A stretch of 64,000 nt of DNA from positions 248,001 through 312,000 of the forward strand of contig JAECRL010000001.1 of the NCBI GenBank assembly GCA_016000265.1, in the 5' to 3' direction. The notes under the pieces are model-generated. The model did no database searches. It was not told the origin of the DNA and worked only from the letters and a program-made list of their open reading frames with translations. Below, one piece after another: positions 1 to 18,775 of the stretch. A program made the translations under genes and the position numbers. Each line of letters starts with the position of its first letter. Within the stretch, counting starts at the first letter, position 1. The stretch comes from Burkholderiales bacterium. Lineage in GTDB: Bacteria; Pseudomonadota; Gammaproteobacteria; Burkholderiales; Burkholderiaceae_C.

Positions 1-10
1 GTCGAGCAAA

Positions 11-4443: not shown

Positions 4444-4499
4444 GTTGCTGCCGAGCTTCATCGGCCACACAGCAACAACACAGCCAGCGGGGTCGACAT

Positions 4500-4576
4500 C
4501 GGGGTGTAGCTTAGCCTGGTAGAGCGCTACGTTCGGGACGTAGAGGCCGGAGGTTCGAATCCTCTCACCCCGACCA
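4500..4576 (+). tRNA. tRNA-Pro (anticodon CGG)
   Basis: A 77-nt cloverleaf with acceptor stem CGGGGTG/CACCCCG, anticodon loop TTCGGGA (CGG, reading CCG), T-loop GGTTCGAATCC and an encoded CCA end. It decodes a common proline codon in this GC-rich genome. Its 3' half (4530-4576) is the integration site of the genomic island; the integration event regenerates an intact tRNA because the same bases are carried at the crossover. A duplicate of the 3' half sits at 18690-18739. Confidence 0.97.
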
Positions 4577-4579
4577 GGA
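4530..4579 (+). repeat. attL: 50-bp direct repeat in tRNA-Pro
   Basis: Fifty bases from the 5' edge of the anticodon loop region through the CCA end plus GGA are identical to 18690-18739. The bases on either side differ, which defines the repeat limits. Confidence 0.93.
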
Positions 4580-4587
4580 CACACATC

Positions 4588-4622
4588 AAAAAGCCCAAGT
4601 GAATCAAGCACTTGGGCTTTTT
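4588..4622 (+). terminator. Intrinsic terminator after tRNA-Pro (island-supplied)
   Basis: AAAAAGCCCAAGTG and CACTTGGGCTTTTT form a perfect 14-bp inverted repeat around a 7-nt loop, ending in a T-run. It lies inside the island, so it replaces the original tRNA terminator, which was displaced to about 18745-18774. Confidence 0.85.
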
Positions 4623-4669
4623 GCTTTGAATCGTCATGAATGTCGTTTCAAAGCAAATTTCCGAACTCA

Positions 4670-4689
4670 GTGTCCCAAATTTGTCCCAA
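4670..4689 (+). repeat. Putative integrase arm-type site, left
   Basis: The 20-mer GTGTCCCAAATTTGTCCCAA contains two TGTCCCAA units 11 bp apart. An identical 20-mer in the same orientation lies at 18620-18639 beside the truncated integrase. In the excised circle the two would flank the att core, as arm-binding sites of tyrosine integrases do. The repeat is observed; its function is inferred. Confidence 0.6.
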
Positions 4690-4779
4690 GACTTGAATTG
4701 GCATGAATGCAGGCGTGCATGTCGCCAGGCTTAGCGCTTTGACACGCCACGCCTTTGGCTCTATGGTGTCAATGCACTC

Positions 4780-5154
4780 ATGAACAACGATTCAAGTCAC
4801 GCAGCCGTGACCACCATTCAGGACCTCAAGCGAGTACGCCACATCGCCCTTTGCGTTGCGGTGTTCGCCTGTGGCGTGGGGTTTCTTGCGTGCGTCGCTG
4901 AGCTGATCGGCATGCAGTTCGAGACAGCAAATTGGCTGCACCAGTTCTCTACTGCTCTGGCTTGGACAAGCCTGCTGGCCATCACCACAACCATTGGGGT
5001 GATGTTTTTGGTTTGGATGCCTGTTCACGACCAGATAGTGGCCTCTCTTCGCGTCACGCGGGATCGGCGCTTGAAGCGCTCACGTTACGTCGAGGCGTTC
5101 ATCTCTGCGCCACAGGGCCGCTCATCTCCGCCTCCCCGGCATCGCCATCGCTGA
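4780..5154 (+). CDS. Hypothetical two-helix membrane protein
   Basis: A 124-residue protein with two hydrophobic segments (about residues 22-46 and 60-85) separated by a short loop, then a basic, Arg-rich C-terminus ending PPPRHRHR. This predicts a small inner-membrane protein with a cytoplasmic tail. It is the first gene inside the island after the left attachment site. No clear Shine-Dalgarno precedes the ATG, and I recognise no family. It could be a spurious ORF, but the hydrophobic pattern and the lack of a better gene here favour a real one. Confidence 0.5.
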   Translation: MNNDSSHAAVTTIQDLKRVRHIALCVAVFACGVGFLACVAELIGMQFETANWLHQFSTALAWTSLLAITTTIGVMFLVWMPVHDQIVASLRVTRDRRLKRSRYVEAFISAPQGRSSPPPRHRHR

Positions 5155-5214
5155 ACTTGCGTCGCAGCACGTGTTCGTGCTGCCGTAGCGACTTGGTCGC
5201 TCAACGCCACAGTG

Positions 5215-5565
5215 ATGGTGAACGACATGCCCAAACCATTTGCCGCGCAGGACAGCGGCATCCCTCGAATCCTTTTCATTGAACAGCTGGCAGCCTTGAT
5301 TGGCAAGCGGGTCACGACGATTCGCACTTGCGCGACCAATGCCAAGTACCAGCACCTCATTCCCCAGCCGTTCAAGTTGCCCCACAGCAGGCGTCTTTGC
5401 TGGCACGAAGCCGACGTTCTTCGGTGGATCGAATCCACCCGGCCGGCCGAGCCGCCTCCACGTAAGCGCCCGCGCGGGCGGCCGACCAAGGTCGAGCAGT
5501 TGGCCCGAGAGCGTTGGGCCCAAACCTCCGCAGCTCGCGCCCCCATGGAAGGGGGTGCCCAGTGA
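5215..5565 (+). CDS. AlpA-like helix-turn-helix DNA-binding protein
   Basis: A 116-residue protein whose central part reads like the AlpA/excisionase fold: ILFIEQLAALIGKRVTTIR for the helix-turn-helix, then the wing-like RRLCWHEADVLRWIEST. A basic tail (RKRPRGRPTK) may add DNA contacts. Such proteins serve as recombination directionality factors or transcription activators of integrase genes in islands. I start at ATG 5215; GTG 5212 or ATG 5227 are possible. Its stop overlaps the GTG start of repA (GTGA), so the two are translationally coupled. The family call is good; activator versus excisionase cannot be decided. Confidence 0.72.
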   Translation: MVNDMPKPFAAQDSGIPRILFIEQLAALIGKRVTTIRTCATNAKYQHLIPQPFKLPHSRRLCWHEADVLRWIESTRPAEPPPRKRPRGRPTKVEQLARERWAQTSAARAPMEGGAQ

Positions 5566-6449
5566 GCGCGGAAAAACTGATCAACGCCAATGTAGCCATC
5601 TGCATGGATGCCCCCGCAGGCGACGAGCTGATGTTCTGCCACTCGATCATGAGCCAGATCGGACTGCCCCGAAGCCAAGTCAAGGGAAGAGAGTTCCACC
5701 ACACCGTTGGGGCTGCCTGGATGAGCATCCAAGCAGGCATGCTGGACGAAGGGGCGGGGCCTGTGGAGCAGCCTGTGCCGTATGGCGCCACAGCACGACT
5801 GGCACTGACCTGTGTTTCAACCCTGGCGTTGCGGCACAAGAATCGTGAAATTGACATCGGGCGCAGCGCAGCAGAGTTCCTGTCAATGCTGGGGCATGAC
5901 CTCCAGGGGCATTGGTATCGGATGCTTCGACGGCAAATGCATGCCTTAGCTGCGTGTCGCCTGCAGCTTGGGTTCCAAGGGCGAACCGTCAACAGCCTTC
6001 CCATCCAACAGTTCGATGCCTGGCAGCCACGCTCTTTCGAATCCGCCTCGCGCTGGCCGGGGCTTCTTGTGCTGAGCGCAGAGTTCTACGCTGAGCTCAT
6101 CGAACACAGCGTGCCGCTGGACGGTCGTGCCCTTGCGGCGCTCAAGGGCTCGGCTCTAGCCCTGGACATCTACACTTGGCTGGCCTACCGCCTGCACCGC
6201 ATCCAAGGTGGCCCCGTCGCCATCCCGTGGGCTGCTCTGATGCGCCAGTTCGCCCATCAGCCCCAAGGGCTGCATGCCAAAGAGACCTTCCGACGAGGGT
6301 TCCTGCATGGCCTTCACAAAGTCCAGATGGTCTACCCACAGGCGAAGGTCGAACCTTTCGACGGCGGCCTGGCGCTGCACGCATCCCCGCCCCCTATCGC
6401 CAAGCAGGTCTTTGCTGCAGCCAAGCTGCAGGGAGGCCCGCATGAATGA
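5562..6449 (+). CDS. RepA-type plasmid/island replication protein
   Basis: A 295-residue protein matching recalled plasmid RepA (RepA_C-type) sequences across its length: KGREFHHTVGAAWMSIQAG near residue 45, the RQMHALAACRLQLG block, IQQFDAWQPR, and the long block from LSAEFY to WLAYRLHRI. These proteins start replication at iteron origins, and also occur in integrated elements. The start is GTG 5562 with an AGGGGG ribosome-binding site 6-7 nt upstream, overlapping the AlpA stop. It runs into the recombinase gene with an 8-nt overlap, making a three-gene operon. Activity is unproven, and the origin is not identified. Confidence 0.78.
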   Translation: MSAEKLINANVAICMDAPAGDELMFCHSIMSQIGLPRSQVKGREFHHTVGAAWMSIQAGMLDEGAGPVEQPVPYGATARLALTCVSTLALRHKNREIDIGRSAAEFLSMLGHDLQGHWYRMLRRQMHALAACRLQLGFQGRTVNSLPIQQFDAWQPRSFESASRWPGLLVLSAEFYAELIEHSVPLDGRALAALKGSALALDIYTWLAYRLHRIQGGPVAIPWAALMRQFAHQPQGLHAKETFRRGFLHGLHKVQMVYPQAKVEPFDGGLALHASPPPIAKQVFAAAKLQGGPHE

Positions 6450-7497
6450 CCTCATCGAAGTCTTGAAGGCCAAGCTGCTGCATGCCACCGAGTTGATTCA
6501 ACATATCGCCTCGGGGCGCAATCGCAGAACTGGCCGCTCCCCCAACACCGAGCACGACTACCTGCGGCTTGGCCAGACCTTGCTGATGCGCGCCAAAACG
6601 ACGAATGGTGGGCTGATCGGTGCCGTGTCGGACACCCGCCGCCCAACCACCTTCCAGAAGCGCATCGCCGCACTGCGTTTCACCTTGCAGTCGAGGCAGC
6701 TGGAACTGCTGGACAGCATCGTGGAGCCGGTGACACCAGAGCTGGCTCAGAAGTGGCTGTGCTTGCTCGACGAGCAGATTGACCACATCCAATCGGTCAT
6801 TGAACTCAAGCAGCAGGGCCTGGTGGGCCAGAGGGCGCGGCGCCGCAGCAAACGAGTTGCCTTGGGCGGACTGCCCCCAGACTGGCGGGAGCAGTTGTGT
6901 CATCGAGGCGGCACCGGCCGGTACTCCGACGCCTTGCTGCTGGCGGCGCTGACAGGGTGTCGCCCCTCCGAGCTGGAGAGGGGAATTGAGGTCTCGCGGG
7001 TGGTCAATGCCGAGACCGAGCAATCACTGATCCAGATCGTCATCGACGGGGCCAAGGTCAAGAAATCGCAAGGACAGCCCATCCGCCGATTGCGATATGC
7101 CGAAGACGATGACCACCCTCTGGTGCTCATGCTCAAAGAGGCATTGAGCCAGTCGCAGCAATCGCCCATGGTCGTCCAGATCGACCACGCGGGCAACTTC
7201 TCTGTGGAGGTGCGGCGATTGGCTGCCAGCCTCTGGCCCGCGCATCCGCAGCCAATCACGGCGTACTGCTTGCGACACCAGTGGGCAGCGGATGGCAAGC
7301 GGATTGGTGATGCAGGTGCTGTCAGTCGTGGGCTGGGACACCTGTCTGACAAGACTCAAAGGCTGTATGGGACGGCATCACAAGGAAGGCGTGGACATCT
7401 TCTGCAACCTGTGAGCGTGGAGGCAGAACGGCCCGTCAAAGGTGCGTCACCCCAATCCACTGTAGTCGAGCTAGACGATCCTGACCCGGCCGGCTGA
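6442..7497 (+). CDS. Tyrosine-recombinase-like protein
   Basis: A 351-residue protein. The C-terminal half has the recombinase active-site pattern: first Arg in ALTGCRPSELE (near residue 173), a candidate Lys in DGAKVKKS, LRHQW carrying the second Arg, H in GLGHLSDKTQ, and the nucleophile Tyr in RLYGT. The position usually occupied by the first His of HxLR is Tyr (AYCLRH), a variation that may lower activity. The N-terminal half is helical, without the usual arm-binding domain. It is coupled to repA by an ATG-TGA overlap. It may resolve multimers or catalyse excision; it is not the integrase expected from the att-proximal position. Confidence 0.72.
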   Translation: MNDLIEVLKAKLLHATELIQHIASGRNRRTGRSPNTEHDYLRLGQTLLMRAKTTNGGLIGAVSDTRRPTTFQKRIAALRFTLQSRQLELLDSIVEPVTPELAQKWLCLLDEQIDHIQSVIELKQQGLVGQRARRRSKRVALGGLPPDWREQLCHRGGTGRYSDALLLAALTGCRPSELERGIEVSRVVNAETEQSLIQIVIDGAKVKKSQGQPIRRLRYAEDDDHPLVLMLKEALSQSQQSPMVVQIDHAGNFSVEVRRLAASLWPAHPQPITAYCLRHQWAADGKRIGDAGAVSRGLGHLSDKTQRLYGTASQGRRGHLLQPVSVEAERPVKGASPQSTVVELDDPDPAG

Positions 7498-7564
7498 TAA
7501 GCGCCTTGGACTAGACGGCCGTTTTTGCCCGAACTGCGACCGAAACAGGGCAGTCCGTCTATAG

Positions 7565-7596
7565 ATTGGGGCAATGACGCGGCTCATTGCCCCAAT
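7565..7596. repeat. Perfect 13-bp inverted repeat upstream of parB-like gene
   Basis: ATTGGGGCAATGA and TCATTGCCCCAAT are exact reverse complements around the loop cgcggc. No T-tract follows, so it is either a Rho-assisted terminator of the repA operon or an operator/recombination site. It sits in the 312-bp gap between the recombinase and the parB-like gene, where I see no ORF of substance. Confidence 0.7.
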
Positions 7597-7809
7597 TGCG
7601 CCTGGCGCTCCTCAGCGCCTGCAGATGCAAATTGCCGACCAGACGATGGCGCCTTACGCGCAAAGTACGAGCAGGGCGCCGAAGTAAAGGTGGAATCAGA
7701 CCGCCCGGACGCTTGACCGGACGCGAACCGCCCTTGTTAAACTCAGTGAACGTGAAGCTGGGTTGAAAGTGCTTCTGGACTACAAGATCAACGCCTGCTG
7801 GGAGCACCG

Positions 7810-8958
7810 ATGACAACAAAAGCGAAAGATCAGACGATGGACACAATCCTTCGCAACACACCCGCGAAAAGCGAGTTGTGCCGTGTGAAAGATCTTGACT
7901 TCGACGCGAACAACCCTCGCTTCCCTCAGAAGATCGCCCAGGGGCCTGTAGAAGCGCTGCTCCAGCGATTCGTTCGTGACGAGCGACTGTTGGAAGTCGT
8001 AGAGTCCATCGGCAACCACGGGTTCTTTCCTGGCGAGCCCCTGCTGGTCGTACCAGTTGGAAATCGCTACCGCGTTGTTGAGGGCAACCGCCGACTGGCG
8101 GCACTGAAGTTGCTGACGAAGGAGCTAGAACCCCCATCGGGTCGGACAACCATTCAAGATGCGGTCGAGGCTGCACAGTTTCGGCCAGCCCAGGTTCCGT
8201 GCTTGATTTTTGACGATGAGAACGAGATCCTTAGATACCTCGGCTTCCGGCACATCACGGGCATCAAGGCCTGGAGCGCTCTTCAAAAGGCTCGGTATGC
8301 GGAACGGATGTACCAAAAATACAAGTTGCTTCCCGAAGAAGAAGGCCTCCGTCTGCTTGCTCGGGAAACCGGTAGCAGAAAGGACACCGTCGGTCAGATG
8401 CTGACCGCATTGCGGCTGTACGACAAGGCAGAAGAGAAGAACTTCTACGGTTTGCCGATCGTGCCCGATCAGATCGAATTTTCTGTACTCGGGACAGCTC
8501 TGAGCTATACCGCGCTCACCGATTTTCTCGGCCTGGAATCGCGCACCGATATCAATATCCAAGGGTTAGAAGAACACGCGCTGAAGGACCTTTTCGACTG
8601 GCTTTTCGTCGTTGAAGGCCGTTCTAAGCCTGTGGTGTCTGAGTCCCGAAACCTACGCAAGCTCGCCGCGGTTGTGTCTTCGGATACAGCCATCGTGGCA
8701 CTCCGAAAATCGGGAAATCTAGACGAAGCATACGAACTCAGCAGCGGTCCAGAGGAGGCGCTAACTGAGAGTTTAAGAACTGTCTTGCGCCGTCTCGAAT
8801 CCGTGCAGGCGCTGATCCCGAAGGTCACAAAAATCAGTGAAGAGCATGTCGAATTTGCCGAAGGGGTCATTGAAGCTGCTCTAGCTGTTCAAGATCTGGT
8901 GAACGGCGCGCATCGCCGTCAAAGGCTGCGCCGCCCAGCATCCAAGTCGCGGGAATAA
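7810..8958 (+). CDS. ParB/sulfiredoxin-fold N-terminal domain protein
   Basis: A 382-residue protein. Residues ~20-110 form a ParB-like N-terminal domain: CRVKDLDFDANNPRF, then the box-II-like VVEGNRRLAALKLL, with GNRRLAA standing for GERRxxA of chromosomal ParB. Residues ~150-210 hold a probable helix-turn-helix (LARETGSRKDTVGQMLTAL). The C-terminus is helical and basic (HRRQRLRRP). It is not a partition ParB: there is no parA beside it and the family motif is divergent. A GGGAG ribosome-binding site lies 5-6 nt before the ATG. It shares an operon with the nuclease candidate 4 nt downstream. Proteins of this type recur in defence islands; the nucleotide or DNA substrate is unknown. Confidence 0.78.
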   Translation: MTTKAKDQTMDTILRNTPAKSELCRVKDLDFDANNPRFPQKIAQGPVEALLQRFVRDERLLEVVESIGNHGFFPGEPLLVVPVGNRYRVVEGNRRLAALKLLTKELEPPSGRTTIQDAVEAAQFRPAQVPCLIFDDENEILRYLGFRHITGIKAWSALQKARYAERMYQKYKLLPEEEGLRLLARETGSRKDTVGQMLTALRLYDKAEEKNFYGLPIVPDQIEFSVLGTALSYTALTDFLGLESRTDINIQGLEEHALKDLFDWLFVVEGRSKPVVSESRNLRKLAAVVSSDTAIVALRKSGNLDEAYELSSGPEEALTESLRTVLRRLESVQALIPKVTKISEEHVEFAEGVIEAALAVQDLVNGAHRRQRLRRPASKSRE

Positions 8959-8962
8959 CGCG

Positions 8963-10042
8963 ATGGCGACATCCAAAAAGAAGCCGAAGGCGGCTAAGCC
9001 TATCCTTGATAGCGCGATGGGTCGTCCCAACGGAAGTGACCTCTACATCTGGTGCGACTTCATCGAGTTGCGCTGCCTCGTTGACAAGGACCGCAAGTTT
9101 TCAAGGGGGCGCCTCCTTGAGATCCTTGACGAAACTGCCCAGATGCATGGTGAGCAAACCGATGCTGATGTGGTGACTCTTCCGGACGAGGCCCTTGTGG
9201 CAGCAGCTTTTGACGCTGATGATGAAGACGACGCCGCCGGTGACGTCATCGCTGCTGGCCAAGTCGGGACCCGAAATGAGATGCGGGTGGCTGGCTGGTT
9301 TGCAAACCTGGCCTTTAGGGCCAAGATCTTCGGCGAGGCCTACCCGTTCAAGCTTTCGGACGATGGTCAAGAGCTGGAAGTCCAACCAGTAGACACCAGC
9401 CTTCGCAAGCTGTACGTGCAGATGTTGATGTCGGCCTCGCTACGTTTAGTGCCGAAAGACCGGCGCGACGAATTGACCGAGTCCTTCGAGGAAACGTCCC
9501 ATGAGATCTTCAAGCAGTTGATGCCAAGAGGCTGGGAAGTACATCGTTTCGGCGCCAAAGGCGCTAGCCGTTACGAAGGCTTGCTGTTCGATAAGCTCAC
9601 AGCTCTCTGCAAAGATCTTCGCGGCAGGTTCCAGTTGCAGAAGAAGGATTTCAAACCGAATGACCGAGGGGACGGGGGGCTGGACCTTGTTGCCTGGCAC
9701 CCAATGGGTGGCGATGAGCGTGACGGCTTGCCTGTCGCGTTAGCGCAATGCGGATGCACTTCAGAAGGAGATGCCTGGAGCAAGAAATCCCTGGAAGCCG
9801 CCCCCGCAAAGCTGAGGCCGCATATCCACTTGCTGCATCCCTGGTCTGCCTACTACTTTATGCCTCACGACCTCACCGAGGCAACTGGCAACAAGATCGA
9901 CTGGCAGCAACGCGCTAACCTCACCGAGACGATCATCATTGATCGCTCGAGGCTCATCCGGCTTGCCTCTCTTTACGAGAGTGTTGACCAATGCGTCACT
10001 GCTGAAGTTTGCGTGATAGAGGCGTTAGCACTCGCTTATTAG
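8963..10042 (+). CDS. Candidate PD-(D/E)XK-like nuclease
   Basis: A 359-residue protein with a Lys-rich start, an acidic stretch (DADDEDDAAGD, residues ~85-95) and a C-terminal domain resembling restriction endonucleases. The core reads GDGGLDLVAW (Asp near residue 240), then ALAQCGCTS (Gln near 261), then DAWSKK (Lys near 272). This is a D...Q-x(n)-W-x-K arrangement of the kind found in divergent PD-(D/E)XK enzymes, in which the classical ExK is not in register. An upstream Glu (FEETSHEIF) could complete the site. It follows the ParB-like gene by 4 nt and converges on the large methylase. Nuclease activity is an inference from motif and context. Confidence 0.6.
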   Translation: MATSKKKPKAAKPILDSAMGRPNGSDLYIWCDFIELRCLVDKDRKFSRGRLLEILDETAQMHGEQTDADVVTLPDEALVAAAFDADDEDDAAGDVIAAGQVGTRNEMRVAGWFANLAFRAKIFGEAYPFKLSDDGQELEVQPVDTSLRKLYVQMLMSASLRLVPKDRRDELTESFEETSHEIFKQLMPRGWEVHRFGAKGASRYEGLLFDKLTALCKDLRGRFQLQKKDFKPNDRGDGGLDLVAWHPMGGDERDGLPVALAQCGCTSEGDAWSKKSLEAAPAKLRPHIHLLHPWSAYYFMPHDLTEATGNKIDWQQRANLTETIIIDRSRLIRLASLYESVDQCVTAEVCVIEALALAY

Positions 10043-10143
10043 CTCGGTCCCTACCAAATCGAATCCGGCAGGGCCTTTGCCACTGCGGCGAACAGCGGTT
10101 TGATTGTGATTAACCCACCAATACCTAGTTATATAGCCCGCTA

Positions 10144-13100
10144 TCAGATCCCAATAAGCGTTCGAACTAGGGAGTCTAAGAGGAAGAGGTCGTTCGGTTG
10201 GACGTCCCCGAATCGTTTAGTCAGATCACGCGCGATAGCGCCAATGGCAGCCATTTGCTCATTGGCCTCATCGAACTTCGGGATGTTGAGATACTCAGCA
10301 ACGCTGGCGCCCAAGCTGAGCTGTGCCGCATAGGCAGACACTGCCTTGGCAATAGTCGGAGCGTTCAAGAAGCCCGTTAGGTAGGCCGCTTCGGACTCCG
10401 TTTCGACCGGAATGAAGTAGAGCTTGTGGTCAGGCACAACGATCTTTTCGCCTGCGTATTCTATCGGTGCGCTACCGATGTATGCCGCGGCGAAGGTGTT
10501 GCCCATCTCGCGCCAAAGCACCTTAAATGGAGCGAAGGTGTAGGGGCCAGTGCTCCAGAGCGAATAGAACTCCTGTCCTCTCTGGAACCTCTTCAAGCTG
10601 GACCTCTGTTCGAGGTGGCTTTTAAACCGGTTGAGGAACTTGAAGGTATGCGGGCTGGTGGCTGGCAGGTCTGGATCGCCATGCATGCCGCGTTGGGGAA
10701 CCAAAATGCGGAGGTCTGCTTCCGGCACGGCATTGAACGGTGCGACACCGCGCCCACGCAAAAGCGGGAAGAGGTGTTCTGACTCCACAGCGGCGATGAT
10801 CTGGGGTATCCCCTTCGTTTTGCCGATGTCTGCTGCGTTTTGCACCGTTACCAGGCCGGCTCCAACCGTACCAGTGGCATGGACCCAGAAGATGCCGTTA
10901 CGATCGGTCGTGATGCCCTTCCGCGCCTTGTATTCAGGCTTTGCTTCGGCCGCAAAGACCTTGGAGAACACAGCTTGGTCTTGCTCAGACCCGACAAGCC
11001 ATGGTCGCGCTCCATCGCCGCCTGGTACTGGTACGGCAATTCCTTCAATACGTTTGGCAGTGTGGCGGAATTGTTCCGCTGAAGCGTAGGTCTTTTGATT
11101 TGCGCTGCAGTTTGGATCTGTTGTCCATGAGAGATAGGGAACAGGGTACGCAGTTGCTGCGTCCCGTTGGAGCATCAGGAACGTTGGAAGGTTGCTGACA
11201 CCGTCAAACGGCTTGATGTCCTGGTAATCTTCAACCAGCAGTACGCGGCACTGCAAATTGCCGTTGTCGATCGAGAAGCGCCTGAAGCCAGCGCTGGACT
11301 CAGTTGTAAACACGGATCCGGGCAGGAAGAAGCCCAAGCGCCCATCGCGCGCTAGATAGTGCTTCACTGCCTGGTATGTGATCACAGTCGAGATGTCCGC
11401 CTCGATGCCACCTACCCATTTGTCGGTGCTGAACACACCGAGACCTTGGCAATGCTTTTGGATCGACTGGGCATAGTCTTTTGGCAAATTGCTCCACTTG
11501 ATCCACGGTGGGTTGCCGCAGATGTGGGAGGAGGGAGGGATCGCACCAGCGGCGAAGCGGTCTGCCAGGATCGAGCACCATATGCCGTTCCATCCTTGGT
11601 CATGAAGTTCGACCAGGTTGACGACTGTCGTGCTGACGATGGAAATCTCAGACGGATCAAGCCCCATGGATTGCAGGTCCGAAAGGATCGTGCTGCAAAT
11701 CTTGGCTGCTGGGTAGTTTGCATCGATCAGCATCCGAACCTTCGCGAAGATGCGGAAGAAATCGGAATGTCCGATCATTTTCTCAGGTACGGAAAATTCC
11801 TTGGGGCCGACTTCCGTGTGCAGGATGTGGCTGTAGTTCGAGAAAAAGTCCACCGAAGCTGGGTACACCGCGTCCGCTAAGTACACGGGCAATCGGATAG
11901 GGTGTTCGGGGTCGAGATGCGGCGACAGGAACACGGCAAGCGACCCCTTCGCTGCAAGGACAGCAAGCGGGTTGAGGTCGATGCCATGGATGCCCGCGAG
12001 CAGCGATTGGGCTGTCGCGCTGCTATCGGCCTTGCGCCGGCGGCGGATCGCCTCGAGCAAGAAGGTACCCGAGCCGCACGTCGGATCGGTCAACGAGTCG
12101 GACGGCTGCCATTCGAGTAGATCCATCCCATGTTCAGCCAGCCAGTCCGGCGTGTAGAACTCACCAAGCGCATGCCTGACTTCACGGGGAATGAACCGCT
12201 CGTAGATGCCTTTGAATAGGTCCCGCGTCGTGTCTGCGTGCTTCTTCGATACGGCGAAGTCGACACCGCCCAGCCTGCCCAACATGGCGTCGAGAGGAGC
12301 TTGGTAGCGGAGCCAGTCGCTGTCGTCCAGGTACCAAGAGAAGAAGTCGCCGCTTAGCATGTTCAGGATGCCGGCATGCTCAAACAGCTCGCCTGTCTCC
12401 ACTGCACGCAGCCGTTCCGTTATCGGCACTCCCGGCTGTAGCACATCTTGGCTGGCTCTCGGAAGGGCGCAGGCGGCCACTACTTTCGCGATGATAGCGA
12501 TGTATGTGTTTAGCGCGAACAGGTACGCCGCAGGGTTCTCCTGGTACGGCTGGTCGTGAGAAATCTTCTGCCGGGCAAGCAGCTTTTTCATTTGAGCAGG
12601 CTGGAACCCTACGACTTGACTGAACAGCCTGCGCCACTCCGAAAACAGCATCTTTGTTTTCGTTGTGGTAGGCGACGCGTCTGCTTTGCAGATGCTGGCG
12701 TAGAGCTCTGGAATCAGTGCCGTGCCGTACTCGGAGTCAGGCCCCACCAATGCTTGCAGTAGCTGCGGGTGAACTAGCGGGCGGCCATTGCTTTCCAGTG
12801 CGGAGAGGAGGCGTCTAGCCGAGATTTGGTCGAACGCAACAACATCATCCCAGGCGGCAGTCGTGCCATCGAAATGGCCGAAAGTGATGTGCGCGCCGTC
12901 CCATGCGACCAGAACATACTCGTGAAGTGCGCGTCCCTCTTCGGCAGAAATCAGCTCTGCATATTCCTCTGCCTGTTGGCGAGCGTGGTTCGCCTTTGCG
13001 CCAGCGCGTCCGCTAAACGACCTAGGCGGCTCATACTCGATGACCACGGCACCGTGCGCCACGTCGGCGAATTTTGTGGGCTTACCCTTCGCTTTGAGAG

Positions 13101-13257
13101 CACGTTCAAGCTGGAATGGCGTCCAAGGAATGAATAATTCCGCGCAAGCCTGTTCCAGCGCATTCTCCAGCTCGTGCCGCAGCTGCGCTTCGTTCTTGGA
13201 AATCTCCGCTGCAGATAGGGCAGAGCTAACGAGTGACGTGGTAATTGCGTTGCTCAA
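10144..13257 (-). CDS. Eco57I-type N6-adenine DNA methylase, possibly with nuclease-like N-terminus
   Basis: A 1037-residue protein. Motif X-like GEFYTPDWLAEHG is followed by SAM motif I DPTCGSGTFLLEA (near residue 392) and catalytic motif IV NPPW (near 582), the amino-methylase signature. The C-terminal ~400 residues resemble the target-recognition region of large type IIG-like enzymes. Residues ~60-110 carry FADVAHGAVVIEYEPP followed by ARQQAEEY, which looks like a PD-(D/E)XK core with Glu in place of the catalytic Lys. The start is TTG 13257, supported by AAGGA 6-7 nt upstream; the stop is TGA. It lies 42 nt after the cytosine methylase on the same strand. Whether it restricts or only modifies is unresolved. 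Confidence 0.82.
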   Translation of the reverse strand: MSNAITTSLVSSALSAAEISKNEAQLRHELENALEQACAELFIPWTPFQLERALKAKGKPTKFADVAHGAVVIEYEPPRSFSGRAGAKANHARQQAEEYAELISAEEGRALHEYVLVAWDGAHITFGHFDGTTAAWDDVVAFDQISARRLLSALESNGRPLVHPQLLQALVGPDSEYGTALIPELYASICKADASPTTTKTKMLFSEWRRLFSQVVGFQPAQMKKLLARQKISHDQPYQENPAAYLFALNTYIAIIAKVVAACALPRASQDVLQPGVPITERLRAVETGELFEHAGILNMLSGDFFSWYLDDSDWLRYQAPLDAMLGRLGGVDFAVSKKHADTTRDLFKGIYERFIPREVRHALGEFYTPDWLAEHGMDLLEWQPSDSLTDPTCGSGTFLLEAIRRRRKADSSATAQSLLAGIHGIDLNPLAVLAAKGSLAVFLSPHLDPEHPIRLPVYLADAVYPASVDFFSNYSHILHTEVGPKEFSVPEKMIGHSDFFRIFAKVRMLIDANYPAAKICSTILSDLQSMGLDPSEISIVSTTVVNLVELHDQGWNGIWCSILADRFAAGAIPPSSHICGNPPWIKWSNLPKDYAQSIQKHCQGLGVFSTDKWVGGIEADISTVITYQAVKHYLARDGRLGFFLPGSVFTTESSAGFRRFSIDNGNLQCRVLLVEDYQDIKPFDGVSNLPTFLMLQRDAATAYPVPYLSWTTDPNCSANQKTYASAEQFRHTAKRIEGIAVPVPGGDGARPWLVGSEQDQAVFSKVFAAEAKPEYKARKGITTDRNGIFWVHATGTVGAGLVTVQNAADIGKTKGIPQIIAAVESEHLFPLLRGRGVAPFNAVPEADLRILVPQRGMHGDPDLPATSPHTFKFLNRFKSHLEQRSSLKRFQRGQEFYSLWSTGPYTFAPFKVLWREMGNTFAAAYIGSAPIEYAGEKIVVPDHKLYFIPVETESEAAYLTGFLNAPTIAKAVSAYAAQLSLGASVAEYLNIPKFDEANEQMAAIGAIARDLTKRFGDVQPNDLFLLDSLVRTLIGI

Positions 13258-13299
13258 AGCAATCCTTGTGCAGACTCACCGGCTAGTGGGTTTTGGGTC

Positions 13300-14397
13300 C
13301 TAGGCAGTCTTACGGGTAGATGGAGTGTCCAACGCGACTAGGCCTGCACCAGAGAACAGGTGTGTAAATATGGCCGCCGCAAGTTTTGGCGGAACGGCGT
13401 TTCCGATCTGAGTGAATTTCGAGTCTGTTTCGCCAACTGGCGTGAATTTGGCATCGAAGGTCTGGATGCGCGCACATTCGCGCCAGGACAGCCTGCGCGG
13501 GGTTTCGAGCTTCTTGCGTTTCGGGTTTGCTTCTAGGTGTTCGTACTGGTCGGAAAAGTCCCAGCGCTGTTTCCATCCATCAGCAAGGTTCGACCATGTC
13601 AGTGTCATCACCGGGCTGGCTGGATGTAGCGTGATGTGCCTCCAGTTTGCGACGACTGTGAAGGCTGGGTCCGCCCATTTAGCCTTTCGGTTCCTGGACA
13701 TGTAGTACCAAGAGAAGTGGCCTTCGGGATCATGCGGGCGCTCGTAGAACTCACCTTCCGGCCATAGCGGTAGGTCCTTGATCGCATCGCCGTGAGATGC
13801 GTACGGGAGGAGAGGTCCTGAAGCTTTGGTCGATTTGCCGTGAGTTTCCTTCGGAAACTCGAAGGCCTGGTTTAGGTCCTTCCTGATTCCGACAATGAAT
13901 AGCCGCTTCCGAGACTGCGGCACGCCGTAGTCCTTAGCGTTCAGCAACTTATAAGTGACGTTGTAGCCCGCCTTGCCGTAAGCTTCAAGTTGCTCTTTTA
14001 GGAAGGCCCCGCTGCTCAAAGCTTTCAGTCCAGATACGTTCTCGGCGACGAAATACTTAGGGCGGACGAGGCTGACCACGCGAAGAAACTGTTTGTACAG
14101 GTTTGTTCGCTCATCTTTTTTAGGATCCCGGTTGCCGGCCATGGAGAAGGATTGGCAGGGATAGCCGCCGACGACAACGTCAGCGTCGGGGAAAGCCTGG
14201 ATGCCTGAAATATCTGCATTGCGGATGTCAGCGCCTGGAAAGTATTTTTCCAATGTCTTGCAGGCATCCGTGAGGATGTCGTTCGAAAAGATGACGTGGC
14301 CGCCGGCCGCTTCCACACCGAAGTCCATGCCGCCGCAACCTGAAAATAGGGATAGAACCCTGATTTCGTTGCCGCTTTGTTCAAATGTCTTTTTCAC
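13300..14397 (-). CDS. Cytosine-C5 DNA methyltransferase (Dcm/HhaI family)
   Basis: A 365-residue enzyme with the ordered motifs of the family: I (LSLFSGCGGMDFG, residue ~20), IV with catalytic Cys (GGYPCQSFSMAG, ~80), VI (FVAENVSGL, ~119), VIII (KDYGVPQSRKRLFIVG), IX (RLSWRECARIQTF) and X (QIGNAVPP near the C-terminus). The target-recognition region lies between VIII and IX, so the recognised site cannot be read by eye. The GTG start (14395-14397) overlaps the stop of the ribbon-helix-helix gene as GTGA. It is upstream of the adenine-type methylase in the same operon, and a dead vsr lies just beyond the regulator. All visible catalytic residues are intact. Confidence 0.93.
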   Translation of the reverse strand: MKKTFEQSGNEIRVLSLFSGCGGMDFGVEAAGGHVIFSNDILTDACKTLEKYFPGADIRNADISGIQAFPDADVVVGGYPCQSFSMAGNRDPKKDERTNLYKQFLRVVSLVRPKYFVAENVSGLKALSSGAFLKEQLEAYGKAGYNVTYKLLNAKDYGVPQSRKRLFIVGIRKDLNQAFEFPKETHGKSTKASGPLLPYASHGDAIKDLPLWPEGEFYERPHDPEGHFSWYYMSRNRKAKWADPAFTVVANWRHITLHPASPVMTLTWSNLADGWKQRWDFSDQYEHLEANPKRKKLETPRRLSWRECARIQTFDAKFTPVGETDSKFTQIGNAVPPKLAAAIFTHLFSGAGLVALDTPSTRKTA

Positions 14398-14633
14398 GCT
14401 CTCTCGCTTGTCTGCTGCGCATCCTCGGCGTCGGTGCCTTGCGGGAGAAGGGGCCATTTGGCCTTCAAGTAGCCATCAATTGCGTCGCGTACGACCCAGG
14501 CAAGAGATACCTTGTTCTCTACCGCGATCTTTTCCAGAACTTGGTACTGATCCTCCGGGAAGCTGATAGACGCGCGGATCGTGCGCTCTTGCGCCCCGCT
14601 GGCATGGCGTTTTACCTGGGCCCGCATAGCCAT
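14394..14633 (-). CDS. CopG-like ribbon-helix-helix protein
   Basis: A 79-residue protein with basic N-terminus, a beta-strand RTIRASISFPE and two helices (DQYQVLEKIAVENKV and LAWVVRDAIDGYLKA), the pattern of ribbon-helix-helix repressors. It is the first gene of the methylase operon and is translationally coupled to the C5 methylase (GTGA overlap). By position it is a likely controller of methylase expression, comparable in role, not in fold, to the C proteins of type II systems. That it represses its own promoter is inference; I did not find a convincing operator in the upstream bases. Confidence 0.72.
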   Translation of the reverse strand: MAMRAQVKRHASGAQERTIRASISFPEDQYQVLEKIAVENKVSLAWVVRDAIDGYLKAKWPLLPQGTDAEDAQQTSERA

Positions 14634-14708
14634 TCTCCGAACTGAAGATCGAGCTCACCATCTTACACCACAGTGGTGAACGGCTGCCAATGCTGGAGAG
14701 GGGTGGCT

Positions 14709-15020
14709 TCAACCCGACTGCACAGAACGTCCCGGGCAGTTGTGCAAAAACGCTCGCAGGCATTCCTCGGTTTCTTGCAGATCGCGGATTTCACACTCTC
14801 ATAACTCAAGGACATCCCAGCCCAGATCTTGGTTGGCCATACGGTTGCGGTCGTCTCGAGCCCGGTTCGCTTCGATCTTCGGTGATCAGTACTCGGTATT
14901 CGACTTCGGTCCTAGAGCAATCTTGCAAAGATGGCCCTGCCAAGAGCAGCCAACGACCTACCAAGGCGCGGTGCACCTGCTTGACGACCGGTACGCGCGG
15001 GCAGAGGTCCAGCCCCTCTT
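14709..15020 (-). pseudogene. vsr: Decayed vsr (very-short-patch repair endonuclease)
   Basis: Read on the minus strand, one frame gives GCSWQGHLCKIALG, PKSNTEY, stop, SPKIEANRARDDRNRMANQD, LGWDVLEL, stop, ECEIRDLQETEECLRAFL, then a proper end. This matches Vsr: the GCFWHGH metal/catalytic region, the TEYW...KI.N..RD helix, and the GW.VL..WECE strand. Both internal stops are TGA exactly where Vsr has Trp (EYW and LWEC). Just upstream a second frame gives LDLCPRVPVVKQVH, the strand leading into GCFW; the two frames are separated by a 19-bp insertion. The N-terminus is missing. Vsr normally repairs T:G mismatches from 5-methylcytosine deamination and is commonly found beside a dcm gene, which is the case here. 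Confidence 0.85.
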
Positions 15021-15049
15021 GCCGCGCTGGTGTGCAGTGGGGAATGCGG

Positions 15050-15528
15050 TCAAGGCGTGAGCCACTTCCATGCGTCGGGCAGCACGCGGGCACGCCGATG
15101 GCCCCGCTGCCCAACACCAGCCAGTCCATTTCGGTGACCTGGGCTGGCAACACGGTGAAGTAGCTGGCTTCGACCAATGGCTTTGATAGGCCCACCGCGT
15201 CGGCTCTCGGCGTCCCCGGTGCCGCAGGCGACAGGTAGTCTGCAGATGAGGCCGACCGCCTGACGCGTTGCCACAGTGCGTCCACCTCAGGACCGCTCCC
15301 CTGAACAGACACGTGGACCAGAGCTCGCAACTGCCATCGCAGCCTGTTGCGCCAGAAAACCAGCATAGCGCTTGGGCGGTGTCCGACGTCGGCCACCTTG
15401 CGGCTGCGCTGGTCGGTGAAGAACACCAGGGTGCCGAGGGCCGCGTCCACGCGCCGCAGCACCACGGTGCGCGCATCAACCCCGCCGTCCTCTGTCGCGG
15501 TCGCCAGGACGGGCATGCGCAAGGCGGA
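15050..15528 (-). pseudogene. Pyridoxamine 5'-phosphate oxidase-like remnant
   Basis: Minus-strand reading gives MPVLATATEDGGVDARTVVL, VFFTDQRSRKV, AMLVFWRNRLRWQLR and VLPAQVTEMDWLVLG, the FMN-binding split-barrel pattern of PNPOx-like flavoproteins. The first ~30 residues of the family are absent. A one-base deletion at about 15111 shifts the last part into another frame (GHRRARVLPDAWKWLTP), which is the usual C-terminal end. It abuts the vsr remnant on one side and a lipoprotein gene on the other, so the truncation probably marks an old recombination joint. It is a broken fragment without a plausible product. Confidence 0.75.
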
Positions 15529-15534
15529 GTCAAC

Positions 15535-15912
15535 TCACTGACACTTGCCAGCAGCCTTGAGCAAGGCATTGCACGAAGCCGAACTGCCGCCGCCGCCCGC
15601 CGGAGCTGCAGGCTTGGACGAAGGCCGACCTTGCTGTGCTTGGCAAATGGCATCAGAGACAACGCGGCCCGTGATGCCCACAGAGCCGGTCACGTAGCAG
15701 CTGTACAACTTGCCAGTATTGGTTTTGACGACGTAAGTGGACTTCACGCCATCATCCACTCGGTCAGAAATGGTGAAGCTTCCCTTGGGCAAGCCGAGGG
15801 TGAACGCTGTGTTTTGTTCGATGGCATCGTTGCTGACGGCGACAGATGCACAGCCTGCTGTGGATGCGATCAGGGCGAGGGTTGCGATACGTGCAAGAAA
15901 CGAGTTTTTCAT
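15535..15912 (-). CDS. Putative lipoprotein
   Basis: A 125-residue protein with a lipoprotein signal peptide: basic MKNSFLAR, a hydrophobic stretch, and lipobox LIASTAGC (Cys near residue 21). The mature part has a central domain (FTLGLPKG to VVSDAICQ) with Cys residues, a Pro/Ala/Gly-rich linker (KPAAPAGGGGSS) and a C-terminal SASCNALLKAAGKCQ, whose two Cys may pair with the others. It is presumably tethered to the outer membrane. It is an island cargo gene of unknown role. The start is the only Met consistent with the signal peptide. Confidence 0.75.
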   Translation of the reverse strand: MKNSFLARIATLALIASTAGCASVAVSNDAIEQNTAFTLGLPKGSFTISDRVDDGVKSTYVVKTNTGKLYSCYVTGSVGITGRVVSDAICQAQQGRPSSKPAAPAGGGGSSASCNALLKAAGKCQ

Positions 15913-16184
15913 GACAGGGCAAGGTCGGTAAGAAGTGGGAATCTGTTCTGCTTATGGAATCACTTTACCTGCTCGGTGGTGGGCAGATGCGGGTGTCCTG
16001 TCTACGGGGTGGGCTGTGTCGCTACCTGCTATTGAAAGTCAGGATCGCATAGACCAACCTGACGCAGCTCCTCAAGGTGCGAAAACGGCAAAGGTGTAGC
16101 GCTCCAGCCCCATACCGCCAATGTTGGTGGGCGGCTAGGTTTTGCCTGTAGGGGCGCACAGGTCCGTGTCATGGTCAGTCACTT

Positions 16185-16886
16185 TCAGATGCTCAAGGAT
16201 CTGGCGAGTGCTTCAGCCCGTTCAGCAAGCGGGAGCAGTACAGGCATCGCGACGACCACCCCAACGAGCAACAACCCTAGGCCGCGTGATCTCGCCGAGT
16301 CGTTGTCGTCGTCAGCCAAAACAAACATCATCCTCAGAACGGACCAGACAACTGCCGCATGCATTGCAGCCAGAGCCACCACGAATGAGAAACCCAACGC
16401 ATTGCGCCAGTATCCAGTGACCAGGGCCAGTGTGGCAAAGCATGCTGATGCAGTGGCGACAAACATCAGCCCGCTCATGAGCGTTACATAGCAGCCTGTC
16501 ACTACCTTCGTTAGCGCGTCACCTGGTGTGCTGTCCAAGCCGCCATTTTTGATTCGACTGACGCCAGTCAAGAAGGTCAACATCAACAGTGCCGCCATCC
16601 ACAACATGGGACTCAGCAACTCGCCCACGAAGGCTTCAAGCGTTTTGTTCGCCGAGTGTTTGCCAAATACATCAAGCATCTCAATAGCGAACGCAGGCAG
16701 CTCGTGGATGTGTTCCAAGTAGGACAACGTGCCGCCGCCCATGCCAACGGCGATTCCAATCCAGCGCCCAGCGCTTGTTTGGCGCCAAACAAATTCGGGC
16801 GTCACCAGATAGGGCCGTCCCAGCCCGAACTCCAGCATTCCCCAGCTCACTGGCTTGCGTACCCGCCTGAACATCGGTCTCGTCAT
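16185..16886 (-). CDS. Hypothetical multi-pass membrane protein
   Basis: A 233-residue protein with about four strongly hydrophobic segments: SPMLWMAALLMLTFLTG, the VTLMSGLMFVATASACFATL region, FSFVVALAAMHAAVVWSVL and GLGLLLVGVVVAMPVLLPLA. The N-terminal ~80 residues are soluble-like and the C-terminus is short and polar. It is an inner-membrane protein in the decayed right half of the island. I do not recognise the family. The 270 bp between it and the upstream lipoprotein contain nothing I can identify. Confidence 0.65.
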   Translation of the reverse strand: MTRPMFRRVRKPVSWGMLEFGLGRPYLVTPEFVWRQTSAGRWIGIAVGMGGGTLSYLEHIHELPAFAIEMLDVFGKHSANKTLEAFVGELLSPMLWMAALLMLTFLTGVSRIKNGGLDSTPGDALTKVVTGCYVTLMSGLMFVATASACFATLALVTGYWRNALGFSFVVALAAMHAAVVWSVLRMMFVLADDDNDSARSRGLGLLLVGVVVAMPVLLPLAERAEALARSLSI

Positions 16887-17131
16887 CTTGGCCCCGGTTG
16901 ATTTGATCTGAATGGCGACTACATCTTATGTGTTGGCCCTATCAAGAGCTACGACGCAGATCACGCGCTGAAGTAACGAAGAGTTATTTGTGCCGCAGCT
17001 GTGGCGGCATGTCGGCCTGTGGCCGCAACAGGACGCCAACGAAGCCATCTCAACGCTGGACGCAAACATTCACGCCCTGTCCCCAATATGGCCGCTGGCC
17101 GCGATTCCTGGCGAAATCGCAACCAACGGCC

Positions 17132-17169
17132 ACATTCTTTGTGCTTTGGAAAGACAGCACAAAGAATGT
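17132..17169. repeat. 14-bp perfect inverted repeat in a non-coding stretch
   Basis: ACATTCTTTGTGCT and AGCACAAAGAATGT are exact reverse complements around a 10-nt loop. The surrounding 16887-17450 stretch has no ORF I would defend; its notable content is this hairpin and the phased repeats at 17218-17325. No T-tract follows, so a simple terminator is unlikely. Confidence 0.7.
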
Positions 17170-17217
17170 TCAGGGCTGCTGGGGACAAACCGATTTGATG
17201 TTGCGTCCATCCAAGAA

Positions 17218-17325
17218 TGTGGCTGACATGGCGTCAACCCTGTGCCAACAGAGTGTCAGCAATGTGGCGTCTTGATGGCGCGCACTGTGTCAGGTCTGTG
17301 TGAAGCCTGTGTCATCCATGTGCGA
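17218..17325 (+). repeat. Array of TGTG-type units at ~11-bp spacing
   Basis: Short units TGTGGCT, TGGCGTC, TGTGCCA, AGTGTCA, TGTGGCG, (weak unit at ~17274), TGTGTCA, TGTGTGA, TGTGTCA and TGTGCGA start at 17218, 17229, 17241, 17252, 17263, 17286, 17297, 17308 and 17319. The 11-bp step is about one helical turn. Related TGTG units occur at 16989, 17000 and 17364. It could be a phased binding array or iteron-like region; chance is not excluded. Confidence 0.45.
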
Positions 17326-17450
17326 ACAACCAGCCGATGCGCTGTCAACATGTTGCCGATCAGTGTGTGATCAGTTGCGCGCATGCGCTAATCTCTGCGG
17401 CCCGAGGCAGGCTTCGGAAGCATCTAAAAATCTTCAAGGGATCAAACATC

Positions 17451-18038
17451 ATGCAAGTGACTCATCTCGTTCGCGCAGTCATCGTGGCGGCAACCTCTAC
17501 GGCTTTAACTGGGTGTCTGGTGCCGGAAAAGTTCAACGCCTCGGTAACCGTTCGCCCTGATGGCGCCTACACCTACAAATACCAGGGCACAGCAGTGCAT
17601 ATGCTGGCAGCCATGGAGATCAAGAAAAGCGGGAGCTTGAGCGCCAAGGCGGAAAGCCAGCTCAAGGCAGATGCCGATAAGGCGGCAAAAGCGCCGGGCG
17701 TCAAGAAGCTGACCTATCAAGGTTCAGGCCGATATGAAGTGTCGGTTGACCGTGACTTGAAGGTGGGGCAGCGGGCGGAGGTCTTGAGCATCGTCTCCCT
17801 GACCACGTCGAAAGATGGCGTGTACACCCTGTCGGCATCTCAGTTGAAGGAGAAAGAACGAGCTGAACTGATGGGCCTGGGCATCAAGGTAGATGGCACC
17901 GTGGAGGTGACGCTTCCTGCCAATGCAAAGGTGCTGACGCAGAACGCAAGTAGCACGCCGGGCCTGTTTTCAAAGTCCTTTTCGTGGAAGGTCAATGGGT
18001 ACGATGCCAAGCCTGCGATGACCTTTACCCTGAATTGA
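17451..18038 (+). CDS. Putative lipoprotein
   Basis: A 195-residue protein with a signal peptide and lipobox (MQVTHLVRAVIVAATSTALT followed by GC, Cys near residue 22). The mature region is a soluble, beta-rich sequence (FNASVTVRPDGAYTYKYQG, later LFSKSFSWKVNGYD) with no Cys pairs and a Lys/Ala helix in the middle. I start at ATG 17451 because the signal peptide begins there; AAGGG lies 10 nt upstream, and the longer frame lacks a signal. It is an envelope protein of unknown role at the right side of the island, preceded by the phased TGTG array. Confidence 0.75.
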   Translation: MQVTHLVRAVIVAATSTALTGCLVPEKFNASVTVRPDGAYTYKYQGTAVHMLAAMEIKKSGSLSAKAESQLKADADKAAKAPGVKKLTYQGSGRYEVSVDRDLKVGQRAEVLSIVSLTTSKDGVYTLSASQLKEKERAELMGLGIKVDGTVEVTLPANAKVLTQNASSTPGLFSKSFSWKVNGYDAKPAMTFTLN

Positions 18039-18144
18039 TAAGTGCAGGCCCTTTGCGAGTAAGTCATCGGGACCGATACATTGACTGTAATGTCCCGTAG
18101 CAAATGGGCTCGGGTGACCAGCTTGCTGTCGTGGCATCCGCCTA

Positions 18145-18612
18145 TTACGGGCGGACACGTCCTGTCTCATCTGAATTGCGATCATCCCACTCGCGGCGGG
18201 CATGGTTGAAGACGGCGGACAGCACATCAATTTCACGATTGACGGTGGCGCCACTGACTTGCTTGAGGCGGCGGTCTCGCCAACTGGCGACCGCACTGCT
18301 GGTGACTGCCGACATCTTGAGCTTGGGCAGGGTCGCGTCTTTCATGATGACGTCGATCTTCACGGACTCGATGTCGGCCGATTTCTTGGACGGCGTGACC
18401 TCCGTTTGATAGCGGCGCAGAATGGCTCCGAGGGTGTTCTTCTCAGCCTCGCGCCGATCCACCACACCGCCCGTGTCGGCGGCACGCTCCAGCTCACGAA
18501 CCCACTTCTCGGCGTCCTCTTTGTAGGAGAAGGTGCGTGACTGTGCGGGGTAGCCCTTGCGCCGCACCTTGGCTTGCCACTGCAATTCGCCGCGTTTCGT
18601 GATCGTGCCCAT
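18145..18612 (-). pseudogene. Truncated tyrosine integrase (N-terminal part only)
   Basis: The 155 residues from ATG 18612 match the N-terminal arm-binding domain (MGTITKRGELQWQAKVRRKG, then SRTFSYKEDAEKWVRELE) and the core-binding domain (VTSSAVASWRDRRLKQVSGA, VNREIDVLSAVFNHARREW) of phage-type integrases. After HARREW the family sequence ends and a stop follows 13 residues later. The catalytic domain with its Arg, His and Tyr residues is missing. It lies next to the right attachment repeat and reads into the island, the expected place for the integrase that inserted this element. The fragment could still bind DNA but not recombine it. Confidence 0.85.
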
Positions 18613-18619
18613 GTCTCTT

Positions 18620-18639
18620 GTGTCCCAAATTTGTCCCAA
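18620..18639 (+). repeat. Putative integrase arm-type site, right
   Basis: Identical 20-mer to 4670-4689 (two TGTCCCAA units, 11 bp apart, same orientation). It ends 7 nt from the integrase ATG, so it overlaps where the int promoter or leader should be, and lies 50 bp from the att core. Confidence 0.6.
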
Positions 18640-18689: not shown

Positions 18690-18739
18690 CGTTCGGGACG
18701 TAGAGGCCGGAGGTTCGAATCCTCTCACCCCGACCAGGA
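18690..18739 (+). repeat. attR: displaced 3' end of tRNA-Pro
   Basis: A 50-bp perfect copy of 4530-4579, starting inside the anticodon stem. The 5' half of a tRNA is absent here, so this is not a second tRNA gene. Confidence 0.93.
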
Positions 18740-18744
18740 TTCAC

Positions 18745-18775
18745 AAAAAGCCGTTCCATGGGGACGGCTTTTTTG
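18745..18775 (+). terminator. Original tRNA-Pro terminator, displaced
   Basis: AAAAAGCCGTTCC-atg-GGGACGGCTTTTTT forms an 8-bp GC-rich stem (one G-T pair) extended by A/T pairs and ends in six T. By position relative to attR it is the pre-insertion terminator of tRNA-Pro. Confidence 0.75.

Follow-up and report, generated by a model that had tools for sequence, protein, structure and literature searches.

A ParB-like protein and a nuclease candidate form an apparently undescribed pair that stands beside a putative replacement methylase in a Burkholderiales island

Introduction

ParB clamps are DNA-loading switches for chromosome segregation. Passages of PMC11662687 describe an Escherichia coli dnd cluster in which dndBCDE adjoins the gene for DndI, a nickase that senses phosphorothioation and belongs to the ParB-like superfamily, and PD-lambda-5, a system with a methylase partner, protects E. 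coli from phages according to excerpts of Vassallo et al. 2022 (PMC9519451). The locus studied here lies in a 64,000-nucleotide (nt) stretch of DNA, the window, which covers positions 248001-312000 of contig JAECRL010000001.1 in a 3.56-Mb, 93% complete assembly (GCA_016000265.1) of a Burkholderiales bacterium. A ParB-like protein of 382 amino acids (aa; 7810..8958, + strand) is followed after 4 nt by a 359-aa nuclease candidate that we call X (8963..10042, +). Facing them on the minus strand are genes for a 77-aa ribbon-helix-helix-like protein (14394..14627), a C5-cytosine methylase (13300..14397) and, 42 nt further on, a 1037-aa type IIG-like N6 methylase (10144..13257). An initial annotation had taken these five genes for one defence system. 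Open reading frame (ORF) calls confirm its gene positions, both spacings and the overlap of the probable GTG start of the C5-methylase, at 14397, with the stop of the 77-aa gene (GTGA). The single system did not hold up: the actual unit is the ParB-like protein plus X, and the set of five was not seen elsewhere in the searched data. We lean towards a reading in which two modules share one island, with ParB-X acting as restriction and its self-protection passed to a replacement methylase.

Results

ParB and X form a conserved pair

We collected 92 X loci, 61 from genomes and 31 viral, with the single seed pattern DGG[ILV]D[ILV][VI]AW, which makes them a biased sample of X that includes near-identical phage copies; adjacency to ParB was no part of the query. 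A ParB relative lies directly upstream of X in 90 of these 92 loci found by X alone, and a contig end cuts ParB in some of the 92 (L018, L028, L031, by our locus handles). The two exceptions are L034, at a contig edge, and L017, which has a truncated X, an intact C5-methylase and no ParB. A DNA modification module also stands near the pair in 85/92 loci. The coupling of a ParB fold to a nuclease candidate seen by the initial annotation is a conserved one, linked to DNA modification genes. In a Cellulomonas locus (L036:5168-10059), two ParB-X pairs stand in tandem.

Homologues of X were found in eight of 250 same-family genomes, its own included (E ≤ 1e-5), in 11 phage records (E ≤ 0.01) and in one plasmid record. 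A convergent C5-methylase accompanies ParB and X in the P2-like phage Wphi and its relatives and also in Pseudomonas phage D14A. Cassette DNA was matched in 140 of 5,426 E. coli genomes, with at least 80% of the query covered in 103; some copies contain an insertion sequence. P2-like phages carry hotspots of antiviral systems, as passages of PMC9122126 report. Excerpts of the E. coli W genome paper (PMC3032704) call that strain restriction-minus, without hsdMRS, mcrBC and mrr, and list Wphi prophages and one putative 5-methylcytosine restriction system elsewhere in the genome; they do not mention the ParB-X cassette.

X and the ParB-like protein belong to PHROG 3984 (phrog_3984, E 1.5e-58) and PHROG 3694 (phrog_3694, E 1.8e-90), respectively, neither with an assigned function in PHROGs. 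X has no Pfam match at E ≤ 1, no PADLOC or NCBIfam match at E ≤ 0.1 and no match at E ≤ 1 to the sequences of solved structures; four X relatives likewise lack a PADLOC match at E ≤ 0.01. The IIG protein and the C5-methylase match PADLOC models (IIG and DruM). The consulted passages of PMC12704722, PMC9519451, PMC12373910, PMC9122126, PMC12839542, PMC10952713, PMC11411939, PMC10853773, PMC11662687, PMC4507180, PMC3812077, PMC3032704 and PMC12707154 hold no description of ParB-X, and we found no earlier account in the literature searched; supplements and subscription journals lie outside that search and may contain one. The pair is apparently widespread and undescribed.

In the window, ParB and X are intact reading frames that keep the family-invariant residues and are conserved at the protein level: compared with the relatives L015 and L016, dN (nonsynonymous divergence) is 0.16-0.19, and third positions are 39-41% identical.

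Predicted folds of ParB and X

The ParB-like protein combines a ParB N-domain bearing an EGNRR nucleotide motif with a helix-turn-helix (HTH) region and a helical C-terminus. Its AlphaFold model (pLDDT, predicted local distance difference test, 92.0) matches CDP-bound ParB, Spo0J and Noc (17 Foldseek matches, E 6.6e-6 to 5.6e-4), so the protein is predicted to adopt the CTP-clamp ParB fold. Residues E91-G92-N93-R94-R95 are invariant in 76 sequences, and the Pfam ParB_N score falls below its cut-off (19.5 bits vs 26.3 needed, E 0.001).

X is predicted to hold a PD-(D/E)XK fold and is a nuclease candidate (D237, D241, Q262, K275). For its AlphaFold model (pLDDT 88.9), the best Protein Data Bank (PDB) match by Foldseek is MspJI (4f0p, E 1.5e-3, probability 1.00). 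Ranks 1-6 are all restriction enzymes (MspJI three times, Bse634I, EcoT38I twice), and unrelated proteins begin at rank 7. The model and Foldseek thus support the PD-(D/E)XK assignment of the initial annotation, although none of the matches has E ≤ 0.001. D237, G239, D241 and Q262 are invariant in 83 X sequences, and K275 is kept in at least 90%.

ParB-X stands beside different modification genes

The 85 loci with a modification module comprise 52 with a C5-methylase and 33 with other modules: Dnd phosphorothioation (13/92), Z1-type (13/92), D12 (5/92) and N6/N4 methylase (2/92). In 42 of the 52, a convergent C5-methylase lies within 20 nt of X. The other ten have it on the same strand (L019, L032, L033, L058, L067), cut (L027), 50 nt away (L029), 26 nt away (L049), separated by one gene (L095) or beside an interrupted X (L105). 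Modules were named by searching representative loci with profiles (DndB, C, D, E, G and H in L037; Z1 and Vsr in L052; D12 in L055; N6_N4 in L059 and L064; a C5-methylase in L033), and the remaining loci were assigned by our own profiles plus clustering. The 13 Z1-type loci are those with a protein from one single-linkage cluster, in which one protein carries Z1 and another has no PADLOC match; a C5-methylase lies within 2.5 kb in 11 of them and a Vsr cluster in six. In six dnd clusters (L037, L044, L045, L047, L050, L062), ParB-X sits between dndH and dndE, and in L044, L045 and L047 one additional gene adjoins the pair.

In L055:216-2340, a protein that weakly resembles PD-Lambda-5_A in its N-terminal part and a D12 methylase (PD-Lambda-5_B, 364 bits) lie directly upstream of ParB-X; L065 and L073 have the same arrangement. 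This layout is a possible link between PD-lambda-5 and ParB-X. A PD-Lambda-5_B-type methylase also shares a contig stretch with ParB-X in genomes G441 and G510.

ParB or X is damaged and the C5-methylase intact in L017, L028 and L105, the pattern to expect if lack of the methylase makes the nuclease side harmful.

A methylase stump marks the junction with a foreign operon

In the nearest relatives of the window pair (L015, L016 and L017), a C5-methylase is convergent with X, and these loci look like a three-gene restriction-modification-like system with a HaeIII-type C5-methylase. DNA similarity between the window and all three stops at 10098/10099 (blastn). Just before this point, 8 nt past the stop of X, are the final 15 codons and the stop of a C5-methylase (10051..10098, −), which match residues 301-315 of the L015 enzyme with 93% identity (tblastn E 2.4e-4 in 8 kb). 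This stump, which the initial annotation had not reported, is what remains, at the 3' end, of a second and native C5-methylase gene that has been deleted apart from it. A comparable remnant was not found in L018 at E 0.05, and in L095 the search matched only the present C5-methylase.

Beyond the junction (10099..10143) the DNA has other relatives. The similarity to loci that carry the same operon without ParB-X spans 10217..14952 (−): L114 is 82.6% identical over 10217-14682 and L115 74.8% over 10220-14952. The window C5-methylase (PF00145, E 1.1e-70) belongs to this IIG-operon clade and not to the ParB-X clade, being 78-92% identical to the enzymes of L108, L115 and L114 vs 42-45% to six native partners. 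Translations similar to the 77-aa protein, which opens the operon, lie just upstream of the C5-methylase in L114, L115 and L108. Its ribbon-helix-helix label is a reading of the sequence that no profile search returned; a distant relative on a Mesorhizobium plasmid is preceded by a gene annotated as ribbon-helix-helix. Neither ParB nor X was matched over 19 kb of L114 or over 10.8 kb of L115, save for a weak ParB match of 106 aa (29%) within an 862-aa ORF of L115; in L108 the operon is seen on a 6.1-kb contig whose end falls within the IIG gene. The IIG gene occurs in 0/92 other ParB-X loci within the fetched flanks, and the window genome alone had X plus a close IIG relative among the 250 family genomes (cut-offs 1e-5 and 1e-60). 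By these comparisons, a foreign ribbon-helix-helix/C5-methylase/IIG operon occupies the place of the ParB-X module's own methylase.

In a tree of X, the window protein nests in the native-C5 clade (SH-aLRT 100), and L095, which has a methylase of the incoming type, nests elsewhere in that clade; the separate positions suggest two independent changes to this methylase type. The tree is a quick search on 83 rows, with L017, L028, L105 and others out as too short or redundant and L027 labelled native C5; its deep forks are long-branched and unsure. In L095, a 273-aa ORF (7945-8766) lies between X and the methylase and could be that methylase's restriction enzyme.

The IIG protein scores 633 bits with the PADLOC model REase_MTase_IIG and matches N6_Mtase at E 5.6e-9. 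Type IIG enzymes join a methylase to an active PD-(D/E)XK nuclease. Here the N-terminal nuclease motif reads D-x8-E-Y-E, with Glu for Lys, as it does in L114 and L115, and cutting would have been lost; six of nine IIG sequences (L108, L116, L117, L174, L175, L176) have E-(Y/F)-K, with L116, L117, L174 and L175 identical to one another at the motif position. Because the nuclease lysine is gone, the protein probably only methylates here.

The replacement methylase shares a HaeIII-type recognition core

M.HaeIII is the best match of both C5-methylase types among solved structures (E 1e-47 for the window enzyme). It methylates GGCC, and passages of PMC3812077 name residues 220-243 as important for recognition. 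Across these 24 residues M.HaeIII shares 13 with the window enzyme and nine with that of L015, and the latter two share 12. The corresponding core pattern is present in 46/46 native-type C5-methylases scoring above 500 (two from phage loci L009 and L012), in 4/4 of the window type and in two of 21 lower-scoring C5 ORFs (L029 and L095). It is found in 0/30 control C5 segments (29 control loci, counted with hidden Markov models). The pattern was written after viewing the sequences, so 46/46 is partly by construction; the control is unaffected. The enzyme of L029 is 49% identical to the window type vs 39-42% to two native enzymes, and that of L095 57% vs 37-39%. In the window genome (assembly 93% complete), the replacement enzyme is the sole PF00145 match found, so no other C5-methylase was seen that could protect.

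The surrounding island

All these genes belong to a roughly 14-kb island (4500-18745), recognised because a 56-nt stretch containing the 3' end of tRNA-Pro (gene 4500-4576) recurs at both ends, at 4530..4585 (+) and 18690..18745 (+), with 96% identity. These attachment-like direct repeats are, with the stump, an addition to the initial annotation. Within this chromosomal island lies a gene for a RepA_C plasmid replication protein-like product (5514..6449, +; PF04796, E 1.7e-17). A weak tyrosine recombinase-like ORF (6274..7497, +; PF00589, E 0.12, under the cut-off) overlaps it with its opening part, its start coordinate being provisional, and a 164-aa ORF adjoining the right repeat (18145-18639, −) resembles, by eye, the N-terminal part of a tyrosine integrase. 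Elsewhere in the window are a tmRNA gene (21545-21915, tag ANDQKFALAA) and, at 46229-58764, a mostly lower-G+C region of acyltransferase-, glycosyltransferase- and sugar-nucleotide epimerase-like ORFs (by eye), probably a surface polysaccharide cluster.

Discussion

In the mechanism we propose, the ParB-like protein would recognise unmodified DNA through its HTH region and shut as a nucleotide-dependent clamp. The clamp would then recruit or license X, which would cut the DNA. C5 methylation of a GGCC-like sequence would hold ParB-X off the host DNA, and in the window genome the replacement C5-methylase, with the same kind of core, may supply this protection. The gene anatomy, the pairing, the predicted folds, the stump, the change of partner, the match of the recognition cores and the lost IIG lysine are the observations behind this scheme; clamp loading, cutting, GGCC specificity, protection and phage defence are what we infer from them. 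The link between ParB-X and the foreign methylase in this genome is suggested by sequence compatibility and conservation. The initial annotation's idea that the methylases protect the host is plausible in a changed form, namely with a foreign C5-methylase in place of a lost native one, and not as first proposed.

We extend this more tentatively to the family as a whole, as a possible account and one that we would not yet rely on: ParB-X may be a portable restriction effector, a ParB clamp licensing a PD-(D/E)XK nuclease, that plugs into 5-methylcytosine, N6/N4-methyl or phosphorothioate self-marks. The window would then show one change of plug, the module's own methylase having been deleted to a stump and a compatible foreign one standing in its stead. 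If true, a restriction enzyme switched by a ParB clamp would represent a novel form of control over cutting. The occurrence of one effector next to genes for methyl marks and for phosphorothioate marks would suggest that one self-mark can replace another, and the stump would show directly how the protective half of a restriction system may be swapped. E. coli prophages carry the module, so these ideas are testable in laboratory strains.

Several observations weigh against restriction by ParB-X under a replacement methylase. The five genes stand together nowhere else in the searched data, so mere adjacency could account for the arrangement, and the swap may be either older or younger than the divergence over which ParB-X was conserved. 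No modification gene is visible in 7/92 ParB-X loci; L018, L069, L071 and L101 are close to the ends of their contigs and the contig of L038 spans 3 kb, but contig ends do not explain L039 and L075. L027 keeps ParB-X with a C5-methylase reduced to 101 of 315 residues, so the pair may be able to survive without an adjacent methylase. Window and native C5-methylases are no more than 53% identical in the core and 43-46% elsewhere, a modest difference, the native ones sharing 82% in the core, and the 30 controls, taken as the top-scoring matches of 29 genomes, come from one class. As to X, the PDB matches, none at E ≤ 0.001, have TM-scores normalised by X of at most 0.29 among the 50 listed, and the usual lysine at +2 from Q262 is missing, so K275 would have to substitute.

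Some of these points suit the strongest alternative, which we regard as rather unlikely though worth weighing: that the window ParB-X is an orphan relic, silent or inactive, beside which the foreign methylase operon merely landed, with no joint function. The absence of the IIG gene from all 92 other ParB-X loci, the operon without ParB-X in L114 and L115, and the broken methylase of L027 would all fit such a history. The window ParB and X are intact, however, with their family-invariant residues kept and their proteins conserved relative to L015 and L016. Moreover, the recognition core absent from all controls is present in the replacement methylase, and a second locus, L095, carries a methylase of the same type.

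Unlikely, in our view, is a modification-dependent ParB-X, in the manner of MspJI or SspE, switched on rather than blocked by a modified base or phosphorothioate. The best fold match of X is indeed MspJI, which depends on 5-methylcytosine (passages of PMC12707154), Dnd genes adjoin the pair in 13/92 loci, and the phosphorothioation-sensing DndI offers a parallel beside dndBCDE (excerpts of PMC11662687). Yet a nuclease activated by 5-methylcytosine and encoded next to a C5-methylase would attack its own host unless the targets differ. MspJI reads the modified base through a separate SRA-like domain (same passages of PMC12707154), the match here is to the overall fold, and Pfam and PHROGs gave no match to a reader domain for either ParB or X. 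That the ParB-like protein serves in plasmid or phage partition, with X an accessory, we consider very improbable, since despite the RepA_C gene in the island and the ParB-clamp fold, none of ten Pfam-scanned window proteins (part of the island ORFs) is a ParA, the pair recurs with DNA modification genes and the fold of X resembles restriction enzymes.

Comparison with known systems

In Druantia, a very large helicase, DruE, adjoins DruM. The window C5-methylase matches DruM models, but no complete ORF above 1037 aa lies in window positions 1-20000. ParABS would call for a ParA, which is missing among the ten scanned proteins. As in type II restriction-modification, a methylase gene (PF00145) is present here beside the gene of the nuclease candidate.

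With the MspJI family (PD-QxK, Mrr-like; active site given as PD-QxK in excerpts of PMC12707154), X shares its fold and the conserved D ... Q, and it differs by lacking both the lysine at +2 of Q262 and a matched SRA-like domain. DndI, SspE and GmrSD resemble ParB-X in pairing a ParB-superfamily NTPase with a nuclease, next to genes for DNA modification (passages including PMC12373910, PMC11411939 and PMC11662687). In these systems, however, a DUF262 and an HNH-type domain are mostly joined in one protein, whereas ParB and the PD-(D/E)XK-like X are separate; DUF262 and DUF1524, of the GmrSD type IV kind, are absent from ParB and X at Pfam E ≤ 1. LlaJI likewise unites an NTPase, a nuclease and methylases in one restriction-modification system (passages of PMC12707154, in which the word 'ParB' was not found), and its proteins are related to McrB/McrC, not to ParB. 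LlaJI sets a precedent for the NTPase-nuclease-methylase logic.

The Wphi genes gp98-gp96-mth, for which no published function was found in the literature searched, have the same convergent layout, with a ParB 39%, an X 35% and a C5-methylase 42% identical to those of the window, the last being 67% identical to that of L015. Unlike the window, Wphi keeps its own C5-methylase intact, and neither a IIG nor a ribbon-helix-helix gene occurs in the stretch read. Two candidate forms of the pair were rejected: the C-terminus of PD-lambda-5_A as a divergent X has no hhalign support, and the proteins found for the PADLOC candidate PDC-M38A, considered as a ParB-X fusion, match the ParB profile in their first half and have no X-profile match at E 10.

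Component A of PD-lambda-5 can be aligned to the window ParB over its N-terminal half (hhalign 99.9%, 234 columns, five A proteins), but its C-terminus is unrelated to X (hhalign 0.1%), and the model for the PD-lambda-5 methylase matches a D12 adenine methylase (L055). A full-length component A (about 430-590 aa) is not present in the window, where the models match the N-terminal part, mostly residues 24-167, and a search of the window genome for component B (D12, PDLC04018) gave nothing at E ≤ 1e-40. It is this kinship with PD-lambda-5 that, by analogy, points to a role of ParB-X in defence.

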